64,000 bases of DNA. It comes from Carboxylicivirga sp. M1479 (GTDB lineage: Bacteria > Bacteroidota > Bacteroidia > Bacteroidales > Marinilabiliaceae). The stretch covers positions 1 through 64,000 of the forward strand of contig NZ_VKDE01000010.1 in assembly GCF_007097485.1 (NCBI RefSeq), given 5' to 3'. Shown here one piece after another: positions 9,272-15,656 of the stretch. Within the stretch, counting starts at the first letter, position 1; the number at the start of each line of letters is the position of its first letter. The notes under the pieces are model-generated. The model saw nothing but the letters and a program-made list of their open reading frames with translations, was not told where the DNA came from and searched no databases. A program made the position numbers and the translations under genes.

Positions 9272-10516
9272 ATGAAGAATATATTTTTATTTATCGCCCT
9301 ATTTTCACTTGCCTTAAGCGCTTGCGAGGATAACTCCCCATCCGAAGATGATGGAAATAACCATAAGGATCTTGACCTTACAATGACCTATGCCATTGTT
9401 GACACCAAACAAACTACTTTTTATAATAATAGTACGGAGATGAGTTCTTCTCCTGAAGCGGGAAGCACTTTCTACGGACAGGACGCCCAGCATACGGGTA
9501 TTCAAGCATCATACACCTCCAACGCCGACGAAACCGTTACGGACAACAATACTGGATTAACGTGGGAGAAAGGCTATCAGCGCTTAACGCATAGTGAAGC
9601 ACTGGCCTATTTAAACGAGAAAAACACTGGCACATATAACGACTGGCGCATTCCAAGTATTAAAGAACTCTACTCCTTAATGCAATTCAATGGCACCGAC
9701 GTGAGCAGTGCAGACATGCATGTGCAGCCACCAAGCACGGCCATACCGTTTATTGATGATAACTATTTCGACTTTGATTATTTCGCCAATGGCGACCGTG
9801 CAATTGACGTGCAGTATTACAGCAGCACCAAGTACACAGGCCTTACCATGAATAACAGCGAAAGTTTGTTTGGCCTCAATGTGGCAGATGGCCGTATAAA
9901 AGGATATCCATATGTCTCGCGTGGTGTTGAAAAAGACTACTCGGTGAAGTTGGTTAGAGGCAACCCAGAATATGGCATTAATGATTTTGTGGATAATAAG
10001 GACCAAACCATTAGCGATAATGCCACCAGTTTAATGTGGACAAAAAATGACAGTGGTGAAGCTATGGAATGGGCAGATGCATTGAATTGGGCACAAACAA
10101 TGAACAGCAATATGCACCTTGGTTACAACGATTGGCGCGTACCCAATGCCAAAGAATTACATAGCATTGTCGATTACTCACGCTCGCCGCAAGCCACCAA
10201 CACGGCAGCCATCGATCCTATTTTTAACACATCAAAAATAAACGTTGAAGGTGGTTTAGAGGATTACCCATTCTTTTGGAGCAGCACTACACACTTAAAC
10301 ACACAATCAGCTGCATCAGCCGTCTATATTTGCTTTGGAGAGGCATTGGGCTTTTTTCCGGAAGGATCAACAAACCCAATTGATGTACACGGAGCAGGGG
10401 CACAACGGAGTGATCCTAAAAAAGACAATGGTAAAGATTATAGCGCTGGCCATGGCCCCCAAGGCGATGTGGTGCGTTTTGCCCATTATGTTCGCTTAGT
10501 TAGAGACATTCAATAA
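9272..10516 (+). CDS. DUF1566 (Lcl-type) lipoprotein
   Basis: A 414-residue paralogue of the protein at 6682, here with a lipoprotein signal (LALSAC, Cys18). The start is the ATG at 9272; the TTG at 9251 would only prepend polar residues. It has two DUF1566 units: GLTWEKGYQ with DWRIPSIKEL, then SLMWTKNDS with DWRVPNAKEL. It carries the WSSTTHL motif and the terminal YVRLVR. The acidic linker after the lipid Cys (SPSEDDGNN) fits a surface-exposed Bacteroidota lipoprotein. It is separated from the sulfatase by about 110 bp and followed by a terminator, so it closes the DUF1566-sulfatase-DUF1566 unit. Function is not known. Surface binding or recognition alongside a sulfated-substrate enzyme is inference from context. 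Confidence 0.85.
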   Translation: MKNIFLFIALFSLALSACEDNSPSEDDGNNHKDLDLTMTYAIVDTKQTTFYNNSTEMSSSPEAGSTFYGQDAQHTGIQASYTSNADETVTDNNTGLTWEKGYQRLTHSEALAYLNEKNTGTYNDWRIPSIKELYSLMQFNGTDVSSADMHVQPPSTAIPFIDDNYFDFDYFANGDRAIDVQYYSSTKYTGLTMNNSESLFGLNVADGRIKGYPYVSRGVEKDYSVKLVRGNPEYGINDFVDNKDQTISDNATSLMWTKNDSGEAMEWADALNWAQTMNSNMHLGYNDWRVPNAKELHSIVDYSRSPQATNTAAIDPIFNTSKINVEGGLEDYPFFWSSTTHLNTQSAASAVYICFGEALGFFPEGSTNPIDVHGAGAQRSDPKKDNGKDYSAGHGPQGDVVRFAHYVRLVRDIQ

Positions 10517-10540
10517 GGATTCACTTCTATAATATATAAG

Positions 10541-10579
10541 AGCTTGCATGGTCAACATCGACTGTGCAAGCTTTTTTTT
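10541..10579 (+). terminator. Rho-independent terminator after DUF1566 gene
   Basis: Perfect 8-bp arms AGCTTGCA (10541-10548) and TGCAAGCT (10565-10572) are followed directly by a run of T, which is a classical intrinsic terminator 24 bp past the stop codon. Confidence 0.9.
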
Positions 10580-10790
10580 AGTCCATTACACAGCTTACCA
10601 CCTTGCCAATCCTCTTCACCTTTTCAGGGGGGAAGTACCACCGCTAGGTGGGGATGGGGGTTAAACATCAATGTCAATATACTAGAGCTAAGCCTACATA
10701 TTATCGATGACAAGCAACAAACATGAGTTAACAACTATCAGAAGACAGCTATGAAATACCACAATCTTTATTTCATATTGAGCTAGTAAA

Positions 10791-10863
10791 ATGCCGTAAC
10801 ACAATCTAACTGGCTTTCGAAATGAATGCTCTAAAACCTATTTTGATTAGTAAACTGTATTAA
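10791..10863. repeat. 72-bp dispersed hairpin element, copy 1
   Basis: It begins ATGCCGTAACACAATC and ends TTGATTAGTAAACTGTATTA. The same element recurs at 20750-20823. The two ends are imperfect inverted repeats of each other (AATGCCGTAAC against AATACGGTTTAC), so the whole unit can fold as a hairpin, as in MITE or REP-type elements. No open frame. Confidence 0.7.
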
Positions 10864-10927
10864 TCAATAACCACCCCGCCTTTGGCACCCCTCCTTATAA
10901 AGTAGGGGAATGATTTACACCCACTAA

Positions 10928-11189
10928 ACCCTTGGGGATAATCACTATCCCCAAGGGGCGAGACTTGATCCCCATGGGGCACGGCTTTGGAACCATGGGG
11001 ATAACTGTTTGCCCCAACAAAAGAAGCTTGCGCCCCATGGGGCAAGGAGCAATCCCCATGGGGATGACGATGCGCCCCATGGGGATTGCTTTAAAAAACT
11101 AGGGGCGAACCCTTTGCCCCTAGGGGATAATGATGCGCCCCCAGGGGATAAAGCCTCGCCCTATGGGGATCATGTCTCGCCCCCATCTA
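10928..11189. repeat. Array of 13 palindromes at exact 21-bp period
   Basis: Ten-base cores of the form CCCCATGGGG start at 10928, 10949, 10970, 10991, 11012, 11033, 11054, 11075, 11096, 11117, 11138, 11159 and 11180, always exactly 21 bp apart. The C4 and G4 arms are largely kept. The central two bases vary (AT, AA, TT, TA, CA), and the 11-bp spacers vary strongly but tend to begin AT or C and end AT or CG. Units 5, 9 and 13 have one degenerate arm. The period equals two helical turns and also seven codons, so weak heptapeptide frames run through both strands. None has a convincing start or signal. A DNA- or RNA-level role, or a decayed repeat, seems more likely than a protein. Confidence 0.9.
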
Positions 11190-11402
11190 AAGTTTCTGAC
11201 TAATTGCAGCACACTACCCCCATTTTACTGTGTAAAACAGCAAAAGCCTTGTAGGATAAATTACCCCATTCATCGATAAATAGTAGCACCCTGTTGATTC
11301 TAGTTTATAAAGCAAGCTGACAATGATACATTTGATAACAGAAATAAAGGAAGTAGCACTACTTAACGTCTAACTTTTGTAAACATTAAAAAATTAAATA
11401 TC

Positions 11403-11789
11403 ATGAAATCATTTTTAAACATTAGCAAAGTACTTTTAGTTATCATCACTTTTGCATTGAGCACTTCTGCCATGGCACAAAGACAAGGCGGACAGCGCAA
11501 CAATGGGCCACGCATTCCCAATGAGCAGCAAATCGAAAAGATGATTCAAGAATTAGAAAAAGAATTATCGTTGAGCGAAGAGCAAAGCATTAAGGTGCAA
11601 GCGGTATACACAGCTCACTTTAAAAAAATGGAAGAGAAAACTAAAAATGGTCGTCCTGATCGTGAGGAAATGCAAGAAATGCGTGCTGACTTTGAGAAGG
11701 ATGTGAATGAACATTTGACAAAGGAGCAACAAGTCGCTCATGCTAAACTACTAGAAGAACGTAGACAGCAACGCAAGCAAAAAAGGTAG
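11403..11789 (+). CDS. Spy/CpxP-like periplasmic protein
   Basis: A 128-residue exported protein. A signal peptide (cleaved near AMAQ) is followed by a charged, helical segment. It contains two LTxxQ-like motifs, LSLSEEQ (about 55-61) and LTKEQQ (about 105-110), which mark the Spy/CpxP family, and ends in a basic tail. Spy and CpxP are small periplasmic chaperones or stress sensors in other bacteria. In Bacteroidota, similar proteins often sit beside signalling genes. The next gene, a small membrane peptide, starts 6 bp after the stop, and the VTC/DUF4956/CotH genes follow on the same strand. A promoter-like TTTTGTAAACA lies about 25 bp upstream. The role as chaperone or envelope-stress monitor is inferred. 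Confidence 0.75.
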   Translation: MKSFLNISKVLLVIITFALSTSAMAQRQGGQRNNGPRIPNEQQIEKMIQELEKELSLSEEQSIKVQAVYTAHFKKMEEKTKNGRPDREEMQEMRADFEKDVNEHLTKEQQVAHAKLLEERRQQRKQKR

Positions 11790-11795
11790 ACTACA

Positions 11796-11951
11796 ATGAA
11801 AGTAAAACATTATTACCGAAGTTTTGCTCTCATTTATGTGATGGTGATCCTGCTCATAGCAGGACTCATCATCGCCAGTGCCGGCTGCACTCAGCATATT
11901 ATTAGTAAACACACCTCCTGTTTACGCACCGAAAGACCACATCCCCGATAA
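11796..11951 (+). CDS. Small membrane peptide or short lipoprotein (51 aa)
   Basis: This frame starts 6 bp after the Spy-like gene. It encodes a basic N-terminus (MKVKHYYRSF), a strongly hydrophobic stretch of about 20 residues (residues 11-29) and then AGC at 29-31, which could be a lipobox (ASAGC), followed by a short basic tail. The topology fits a single-pass inner-membrane peptide or a tiny lipoprotein. No homologue is recognised. Tight spacing to the upstream gene and a good hydrophobic profile support translation, but the length makes chance hard to exclude. Confidence 0.45.
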   Translation: MKVKHYYRSFALIYVMVILLIAGLIIASAGCTQHIISKHTSCLRTERPHPR

Positions 11952-11955
11952 GCTA

Positions 11956-12061
11956 TTATACCGATTACTATTCAAAATGCGCCTTTCGTTCGCTTCACTC
12001 CTAAAAGCACTATGAATATGTATCGGCATTATACCAGCGCATTTTAATATTTAATTGGTAT
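11956..12061. repeat. Inverted-repeat element with ATACCRATTA ends
   Basis: The left end ATACCGATTACTATTCAAAA followed by TGCGC is mirrored by GCGCATTTT then AATATTTAATTGGTAT at the right end. This is an imperfect inverted repeat of about 27 bp around a roughly 50-bp centre. It fits a small non-autonomous element. The ATACCAAT terminus recurs elsewhere in the window. Confidence 0.5.
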
Positions 12062-12086
12062 TATTTAATCCTATATCCCATTTCAT

Positions 12087-14204: not shown

Positions 14205-15656
14205 ATGCATATCTCAAAAAACAACTTACTTGGCCTACTATTTGGTCTATTAATATTGGTCAGTGCCTGCAGAGAAGACAGTGCGATTGCACCTGAAAGT
14301 GAATCTGAGCAGGATGAAGAAGAAGTGATTGTAGACCCGGAGACATATCCCGATTGGAGCGATGAAACACACAGCAAAAGTGCAGAACTGAACTATGATA
14401 TAGTATTTCAACAAGATGCGGTATTACGCATTGACCTTAAAATAAGTGATAGCAATTGGTCGCAAATGCAAAGCGACTTGGCAACTAACCTTGGAAGTAC
14501 TGGTGGAGGCCCTGGTGGCGGAGGTCCAGGTGGTGGAGGTCCAGGTGGTGGCACAAGCCCTGGAGATACTGATTTTGATCCTATTTGGGTGCCTTGTTCT
14601 TTTACCTTTAACGATACAGAGTGGTACAACGTTGGCGTTCGATACAAGGGTAACTCAAGTTTAAAATCGGCCTATCAGTCAGGCAACCAAAAACTATCGT
14701 TCAAACTCGATTTTGATGAATTTGAAGATGATTATCCTGCTTTAAAAAACCAACGATTTTATGGGTTTAAACAGCTCAACCTCAACAATAATTTCGATGA
14801 TGCATCGCTTCTGCGCGAGAAAGTTGCTTCCGATTTATTTAGGCAGTTTGGACTTGTATCTGCGCAAACCAGTTTTTGCGAGGTTTATGTTGATAATGGC
14901 TCAGGCCCACAATACTTCGGCTTATACACCATTGTTGAGGAGATGGATGATACCGTTGTTGAAACACAACTTAGCGATTACAGTGGCAACCTTTACAAGC
15001 CCGATGGTGATGCAGCCAGTTTTGCTAACGGTACTTATGACAATGGCGAAATGGAAAAGAAAAACAACGAAGAAGTTGGAGACTACAGCGATATTAAAGC
15101 CCTATACTCCACACTTAATTCATCAACACGCACCAGTAATGTAGAACAGTGGAAGAGTGAATTGGAAACGATATTTAATGTAGATGGTTTTATGCGGTGG
15201 CTAGCGGCCAACACCACTATACAAAATTGGGATACCTATGGCCGAATGACCCACAATTACTATTTGTATAACAACCCAGCTAACAATTTACTTACCTGGA
15301 TTCCGTGGGACAACAACGAAGCTTTTCAGGAAGGTAAACAAGGTGGTGCTTTAAGCTTTTCAATGAACGAAGTTGCTAGCAACTGGCCCTTGATCAATTA
15401 TCTGATGCAAATACCAGAGTACGAAAACATGTACAAAGGCCACCTCGAGGATTTTGCCGATAAGGTTTTTATTCCAAGCGAAATGAATACGCTTTACAGC
15501 AAGTATTACGACTTACTGAAAGAATATGCTTATGCAGAACGCAGCACACATTCATTTATAAGTAGTAACAGTGCTTTTGATAATGCCATAGAAGAACTAA
15601 ATAATCATGTTCAGAGTCGCAACGATGCACTATCTGAATATTTAACTATTGATTAA
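14205..15656 (+). CDS. CotH-family protein kinase-like lipoprotein
   Basis: A 483-residue lipoprotein (lipobox LVSAC, Cys22) with an acidic linker. CotH domain features include VRYKGNSSLKSA (about 147-158), QLNLNNNFDDASLLREKVA (about 189-207), the LYTIVEEMDD segment and WIPWDNNEAF (about 367-376). A glycine-proline tract of repeated GGGPG units (about 101-116) is inserted before the first core strand. CotH in Bacillus is an atypical protein kinase of the spore coat. Bacteroidota homologues are exported, and their substrates are unknown. It is the last gene of the VTC-DUF4956-DUF2490-CotH run, with a strong terminator just after it. Surface location and phosphotransfer activity are inferred from family and lipobox. 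Confidence 0.87.
   Translation: MHISKNNLLGLLFGLLILVSACREDSAIAPESESEQDEEEVIVDPETYPDWSDETHSKSAELNYDIVFQQDAVLRIDLKISDSNWSQMQSDLATNLGSTGGGPGGGGPGGGGPGGGTSPGDTDFDPIWVPCSFTFNDTEWYNVGVRYKGNSSLKSAYQSGNQKLSFKLDFDEFEDDYPALKNQRFYGFKQLNLNNNFDDASLLREKVASDLFRQFGLVSAQTSFCEVYVDNGSGPQYFGLYTIVEEMDDTVVETQLSDYSGNLYKPDGDAASFANGTYDNGEMEKKNNEEVGDYSDIKALYSTLNSSTRTSNVEQWKSELETIFNVDGFMRWLAANTTIQNWDTYGRMTHNYYLYNNPANNLLTWIPWDNNEAFQEGKQGGALSFSMNEVASNWPLINYLMQIPEYENMYKGHLEDFADKVFIPSEMNTLYSKYYDLLKEYAYAERSTHSFISSNSAFDNAIEELNNHVQSRNDALSEYLTID

Follow-up and report, generated by a model that had tools for sequence, protein, structure and literature searches.

What holds thirteen short palindromes at a constant distance from one another in an intergenic region of Carboxylicivirga sp. 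M1479, and is this array read as DNA, as RNA or as protein? The array lies in a stretch of 64,000 nucleotides that was analysed as a whole (hereafter, the window), and the starts of its ten-base cores follow 10928+21k, with k running from 0 to 12, which confirms the constant 21-bp pitch reported in a preliminary description of the same DNA (Table 1). The answer that we favor is a conserved cis-acting scaffold of double-stranded DNA that is read half-site by half-site, probably by the protein of a linked gene; binding and function are inferred, and we give this reading about an even chance of being correct.

Seven of the cores in the window are perfect CCCCNNGGGG palindromes, and most spacers between cores have AT at one end and CG or TG at the other, as judged by eye. 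The array begins 412 bp past the end of one gene, which we take to be DUF1566-like, and ends 214 bp ahead of a small and presumably Spy-like gene. Two 250-bp segments covering most of the array have a G+C content of 0.52–0.55, compared with 0.33–0.47 in the other segments of positions 10000–12000. Other repeats were observed in the window and in two further stretches, L006 and L007. A 109-bp non-coding stretch at 11955–12063 of the window recurs at L006:145–251 with 91.7% identity and represents another dispersed repeat of this genome, and a 15-bp tandem repeat at 14501–14551 encodes Gly-rich (GPGGG) repeats within the open reading frame 14205–15656. A recent dispersed repeat of 155 bp is 98.7% identical at L007:4089–4243 and L006:7791–7945, and the open reading frames at L007:3235–3937 cross long direct repeats (ETQRHGG... 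in translation) that apparently form a separate tandem repeat family.

Table 1. The window array and its thirteen units (positions in the window; no strand is assigned to these features)
Feature	Coordinates	Basis
Whole array, 13 cores of 10 bp at 21-bp pitch	10928..11189	pattern; same-genome homologues; scan for open reading frames of the linked family
Unit 1 core ACCCTTGGGG, end unit; left arm different in all three copies, excluded from the arm count	10928..10937	
Unit 2 core, perfect	10949..10958	pattern and copy comparison
Unit 3 core, perfect	10970..10979	pattern and copy comparison
Unit 4 core AACCATGGGG; deviant left half-site AACC, same in C1 and C46	10991..11000	copy comparison
Unit 5 core CCCCAACAAA; deviant right half-site CAAA, same in C1 and C46	11012..11021	copy comparison
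Unit 6 core, perfect	11033..11042	pattern and copy comparison
Unit 7 core, perfect	11054..11063	pattern and copy comparison
Unit 8 core, perfect	11075..11084	pattern and copy comparison
Unit 9 core AAACTAGGGG; deviant left half-site AAAC, same in C1 and C46	11096..11105	copy comparison
Unit 10 core, perfect	11117..11126	pattern and copy comparison
Unit 11 core, perfect	11138..11147	pattern and copy comparison
Unit 12 core CCCTATGGGG (CCCT); sole arm base of units 2–12 that differs from C1 and C46	11159..11168	copy comparison
Unit 13, end unit, left arm only (CCCCCATCTA)	11180..11189	

A search of the 5.44-Mb genome with a two-unit pattern at 21-bp pitch, allowing up to two mismatches, gave 27 places per strand (none with the reversed control) and identified four arrays, namely the window array (C2) and arrays starting at C1:193035, C46:62518 and C37:107520. 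The genome contains 38 CCCCNNGGGG sites, 32 of them in the four arrays and six elsewhere, which equals the six matches of the reversed control pattern. Isolated cores are thus no more frequent than expected by chance and, with no sign of a regulon built on single sites, this candidate was ruled out. The figures of four arrays and 38 sites refer to the CCCC type, the one counted across the genome.

Three of these arrays, C1, C2 and C46, align without gaps over 235–238 bp with 84–88% identity (blastn), and their homology stops at the array ends, apart from a further 27 identical bp shared by C1 and C46, among them the stop codon of the gene adjoining C46. When units 2–12 were compared, the arms differed at one of 88 positions between C2 and C1, one of 88 between C2 and C46 and none of 88 between C1 and C46. 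For the same three pairs, the counts were 9, 6 and 10 of 22 for the central NN, 6, 5 and 6 of 44 for the spacer ends, and 27, 26 and 18 of 77 for the spacer middles (Fisher p for arms versus spacer middles 1.1e-9, 2.9e-9 and 3.3e-7, respectively). The half-sites are therefore under purifying selection, including the inner deviant ones AACC, CAAA and AAAC, which are identical in all three copies despite 23–35% divergence of the spacer middles and hence represent conserved signals rather than decay. The preliminary description had regarded the loss of single arms in units 5, 9 and 13 as decay; those three changes are real, but units 4 and 12 were missing from its list (unit 1 is also changed), and in units 4, 5 and 9 the three copies have the deviant arms in common, with the end unit 13 lying outside the comparison. 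Its description of the spacers as variable holds only in part, since their middles are 65–77% identical among the three copies and their ends show the AT and CG or TG preference seen by eye.

Related arrays have a patchy distribution. The exact two-unit CCCC pattern was found in five of 60 relatives, including the source genome, and, with no mismatch allowed, in two genomes out of a sample of 393 from the order, again counting the source genome (control, none). A looser three-unit pattern with three mismatches matched five of 71 genomes of the family, with one match (G030) being an unrelated repeat, and its reversed control matched a single genome, G014, four times per strand. In a collection of 84,980 species we identified 19 stretches with the CCCC pattern, including 13 arrays of at least four loosely scored units in Carboxylicivirga, Marinilabiliaceae JC017, Saccharicrinis UBA6048, Draconibacterium, and Bacteroidetes, Spirochaetes and Spartobacteria metagenome-assembled genomes (MAGs); the other six stretches have two units only and are chance-like. 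Absence from all relatives, which the preliminary description would have taken as a sign of a local expansion, is not what we observed, as related arrays occur both in relatives and in other phyla. Among 16 Bacteroidota CCCC arrays, examined with 150 bp on either side, a single off-register unit was detected, in L096; the matches listed at offset 274 of two other arrays, as well as those listed inside arrays, are one-base rereadings of C or G runs. The pitch drifts in the Spartobacteria array (L110). The best orthologues of the genes flanking the window array are only about 50% identical in sister species. In viral contigs, 66 stretches contain the two-unit CCCC pattern and appear to be G+C-rich chance matches or other repeats; three viral contigs (L036, L058 and L076) carry other 21-bp tandem repeats with C/G-rich cores and no relative of the linked gene described below. 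One further stretch, L128 (G167:C114), ends, apparently together with its contig, inside a near-identical CCCCTTGGGG array, suggesting that such arrays may break assemblies and be undercounted.

Listing the neighbors of 18 arrays revealed the same small gene beside five of them, in C46, JC017b, bin.700, one Draconibacterium and the spirochaete. Its product of about 104 amino acids is predicted to be all-helical. With a protein model, this gene was found in eight of 71 genomes of the family, in a single one of 395 genomes sampled from the phylum (the source genome) and in seven of eight array-bearing genomes tested. The Spirochaetes MAG (G850) has 17–18 family matches, some of which are fragments, and the Spartobacteria MAG has two. 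Eleven of the 12 genomes first found by their CCCC array carry the gene, a set in which four species-collection records were merged with genomes of relatives by identical array sequence and from which six genomes with two-unit chance matches were left out. Since the gene was first noticed in five of these 12, the independent count is six of seven, with G006, G008, G167, D. aestuarii, D. mangrovi and the Spartobacteria MAG being positive and G010/A043 negative. The array class is thus linked to one small all-helical protein family, which itself evolves under purifying selection (dN 0.13–0.20 in six pairs; dS 1.6–3.1 in four of them and not computable in two). Open reading frames of this family are absent from the whole window, so the window array is gene-less, and from the surroundings of C1 (11 kb) and C37 (9 kb).

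No convincing family was found for the gene product. Its best Pfam match is PEX14-like_2nd (E 0.00013), seen in two of 40 members and below the cut-off where shown, and the best matches in other libraries have E values of 0.0015 (NCBIfam), 0.0019 (PADLOC), 0.003 (PHROGs, four proteins scanned) and 0.1 (PDB); these genes are therefore probably annotated as hypothetical. The AlphaFold model is all-helical without any strand and includes a 57-residue helix (mean pLDDT 94.5, pTM 0.64), and Foldseek searches of PDB and of viral models gave nothing at an E value of 0.001 or below. A recognized DNA-binding domain was not found in the protein, and no homologues of the gene were detected in plasmids, phages (searched with one family member) or viral contigs. 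Autoregulation through a core upstream of the gene was considered and ruled out, as no own-core site was found there at 27 loci (mean rank 0.54). A search for a conserved 5' leader gave only group-specific motifs. A GC-rich hairpin-like element (GGCCACC...GGTGGCC type) lies just 5' of five Draconibacterium-group genes (L100, L101, L178, L183 and L187) and is perhaps an attenuator. The family matches of G850 include a second subfamily (IGFCE... start), and some arrays of this genome lie 5' of the gene.

We further analyzed the flanks of 41 gene loci from three phyla, distinct in their first 60 residues, by comparing lags of 12–45 bp over 450 bp. Lag 21 was among the top two in 33 of the 39 3' flanks of at least 300 bp, and the top two were 21 and 42 in all 33. 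Random pieces of the window and of viral contigs had this pair on top in 22 of 1499 cases and lag 21 among the top two in 276 of 1499, a background that is probably due to codon periodicity; in the 313 pieces from the window alone, the corresponding numbers were one and 30. On the 5' side, lag 21 reached the top two in 11 of 41 flanks, which is partly background. Four of the six 3' failures (L105, L193, L196 and L198) have their array 5' of the gene, and the other two (L175 and L180) have no clear array. Among genomes of the spirochaete phylum, the small gene was found in four of 247, one being the already known MAG. In the other three, nine loci were chosen by protein alone, of which three pass the lag rule (L202 and L205 on the 3' side, L207 on the 5' side), L201 passes at 42 bp only, four fail and one has too short a 3' flank, indicating a weaker association of gene and array in these distant members.

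The gene-linked arrays have 5–18 units with a mode of 12, and 28 of 31 have 9–15 units. Their consensus cores vary by locus and include CCCC-GGGG, GACC-GGTC, TTACC-GGTAA, CAACC-GGTTG, GTACC-GGTAC, GCAA-TTGC and AAGAT-ATCTT, with weak dyads only at some loci. In the source genome, the gene loci C46 and C1:24421 do not share a core, and in G852 each of five loci has one of its own (CCCC, TTACC, AAGAT, GTACC and TTTTT). D. aestuarii has two CCCC arrays (L093 and L103), yet the arrays beside its two genes have AAGAT and CAACC cores, suggesting that an array can outlive its cognate gene or do without it. Core similarity correlates with protein similarity (Mantel r 0.261, 30 arrays, 3 of 2000 permutations), a weak correlation that is partly expected from common descent and CCCC-based sampling. 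In several arrays a second half-site was seen by eye at fixed positions, namely TTTT/AAAA with CCCC in Draconibacterium, ATTC with CGGC in G008, and TACCC with ATCTT in L173 and L183. In the six pairs formed by four of the six Draconibacterium-group CCCC arrays, the arms differ at 12, 22, 25, 33, 36 and 40 of 112 positions (11–36%) and the spacer middles at 45–62 of 98 (46–63%). The pair closest in arms, L109 and L100, has nearly the same order of half-site types despite 60 differences in 98 spacer-middle positions, and L093 follows the same order with apparently one extra whole unit. A conserved order of two half-site types, assigned by a simple threshold, is a lead to follow in this group.

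The copies without a gene, the end of the C1, C2 and C46 homology at the array ends, the 27 bp, with a stop codon in them, that C1 and C46 share, and the patchy occurrence over phyla might also be explained by a selfish repeat that is not autonomous and depends on the linked gene or a different enzyme for its movement, with arms conserved because the mobilizing protein reads them. We consider this rather unlikely, as no transposase or recombinase family is present among the Pfam and NCBIfam matches of 40 members (E up to 0.01), the genome has only four arrays of the CCCC type, the one that was counted, and the gene-less copies retain their arms after 23–35% spacer divergence. It is unlikely, too, that a general host factor binds the arrays and the linked small protein does something else. 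Orphan arrays whose genome has no gene with the corresponding core, together with the lack of a recognizable DNA-binding fold in the linked protein, are in line with such a factor, but one factor hardly explains different cores within a single genome, as at the five loci of G852, or a gene–array linkage that extends over three phyla.

Palindromic arms may instead form tandem hairpins in a transcribed RNA, for example a sponge or an antitoxin-like RNA. The window array taken as a DNA strand folds far below its dinucleotide shuffles (z -10.34) and, as RNA, also better than its spacer-shuffled versions (z -4.79 on the + strand and -2.84 on the - strand), and arrays are mostly 3' of the gene, all of which would suit a transcript. 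However, the same RNA comparison over 13 arrays and both strands ranges from the -4.79 of the window array to +3.88 for C37, and therefore RNA structure is not conserved. The preliminary description had asked whether arms co-vary. In 31 of the 41 gene loci, selected for a clear dyad and sufficiently informative columns (359 units in total; the window array is outside this set), arm covariation across the dyad did not exceed that of shuffled arrays at any of seven distances, and half-sites of different units showed no complementarity (z -0.90 to 1.04 at offsets 1–6, compared with -2.41 within the same core). Deviations tend to occur together inside a half-site (phi 0.219, n = 279), but one half of a core deviates independently of the other (phi -0.005, n = 373), which makes hairpins unlikely and suggests that the arms behave as separately read half-sites for protein binding to double-stranded DNA rather than as stems. 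Terminator-like hairpins between gene and array at 14 of 40 loci, the exact pitch, which hairpins do not need, and the absence of Rfam matches at gathering score in the window also argue against an RNA array, and we regard it as quite improbable. A giant hairpin of the window array, formed by complementary spacers in its two halves, was considered separately and dropped, because other arrays fold no better or even worse than their spacer-shuffled versions (C37 again at z +3.88).

A pitch of 21 bp corresponds to two turns of B-DNA, which fits the reading of half-sites on double-stranded DNA. The helically phased, protein-organized array suggested by the preliminary description remains the best fit to the exact pitch, the constrained arms and the lack of covariation in the 31 gene-linked arrays, to which the window array does not belong. 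A local tandem expansion without function, reminiscent of the near-identical tandem copies in L105, L169, L172 and L188, is very improbable given the related arrays in other genera and phyla and the selection on arms. The coding origin in heptads (xPHGDxx), considered in the preliminary description because 21 bp equal seven codons and, like a coding remnant, compatible with the long open frames that cross some arrays, is hardly credible and was rejected, since a stop interrupts C46, another one immediately precedes C1, where a start is also missing, all six frames are closed in 11 of 29 gene-linked arrays, and in the heptad frame the arm wobble positions are constant and the second codon position in NN is variable.

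Among known systems, the element appears to work most like REP/RAYT pairs and partition or iteron arrays, although the tested defining features of each were not found. Similar to REP elements and BIMEs with RAYT transposases (REPtrons), as outlined in PMC2817692, it combines short intergenic palindromes, a linked gene family co-evolving with the palindromes and gene-less copies elsewhere. It differs from the REP/RAYT systems outlined there in that no IS200/IS605-like tyrosine transposase is among the family matches given above, in the position of the array (3' in 33 of 39 flanks and 5' in four of the other six) instead of two inverted palindromes flanking the gene, in the 38 CCCC cores, 32 of them in four arrays and other cores uncounted, instead of more than 100 copies per genome, and in having about 12 units at exact pitch with half-sites of about 4–6 bp (PMC2817692). 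CRISPR arrays combine identical repeats with unrelated spacers and cas genes; the spacers here are related between copies and within several arrays.

Iterons and partition centromere arrays such as parC/ParR place about a dozen helically phased sites beside the gene of a small protein. Our arrays resemble parC/ParR in phasing and linkage alone and differ in the all-helical protein model, which has no strand, no ribbon-helix-helix and no PDB match with E up to 0.001, as well as in the inverted half-sites of each unit, the different core at each locus and the location on what are, as far as seen, chromosomal contigs. No consistent partner gene for a filament or ATPase was noticed in an unsystematic listing of the nearest ORFs of 18 arrays. 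In type III toxin-antitoxin systems, a repeat array yielding a structured RNA lies 5' of the toxin gene. One small gene with a tandem-repeat array and, at some loci, a terminator-like hairpin in between is a shared layout, whereas the predominantly 3' array (33 of 39), the lack of arm covariation and the absence of any toxin family among those found set the element apart. CsoR regulators are small helical proteins whose operators are single sites, not arrays. A CsoR-type operator with G-tracts in a pseudopalindrome, as presented in PMC3902906, is similar to our CCCC cores; it differs in that our sites form arrays, that no CsoR family is among the Pfam, NCBIfam and PDB matches, and that other loci have quite different cores. 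PARCELs, as far as PMC2996958 characterizes them, are coding tandem repeats of 25-residue units with dyad symmetry and patchy distribution; the latter two features are shared, whereas our 21-bp units are non-coding and 11 of 29 arrays lack any open frame.

Returning to the double-stranded DNA scaffold, each 21-bp unit would offer two inverted half-sites, so that about 12 units would present about 24 half-sites on one face of 250–300 bp. The linked protein, or a complex containing it, may bind its own array and build a size-limited, phased nucleoprotein structure, within which the second half-site class would mark fixed positions. Arrays could be copied independently of the gene, with the window array being a putative gene-less duplicate of the C46 type that has been kept under selection. 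As a first guess, such a nucleoprotein might anchor or condense its locus; tethering, partition, silencing and its own propagation are further candidate roles. The G010/A043 genome, which has an array and no gene, counts against the scaffold. No published description of such arrays was found in the open-access PMC literature (subscription journals being outside its scope), and since the family libraries also gave no match, the element appears to be new. The related arrays with their own half-sites beside small-protein genes in several phyla suggest a protein-plus-DNA-scaffold element of a new kind. In its full form, to which we assign slightly less than an even chance, this would be an undescribed two-part element of at least three phyla, in which a helical protein of about 104 amino acids is paired with a private array of about 12 two-turn units with inverted half-sites of two letters in a conserved order, each locus evolves its own orthogonal alphabet, one genome can hold many independent protein–scaffold pairs, and arrays can be copied elsewhere as addressable tethers.

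Apparently decayed palindromes can be selected signals. If the scaffold reading is true, these loci would represent a new class of bacterial protein–DNA scaffolds with natural, perhaps orthogonal, pairs. They would also provide a toolbox of phased scaffolds and, as a natural experiment, show how DNA specificity and an array of about 24 half-sites change together.
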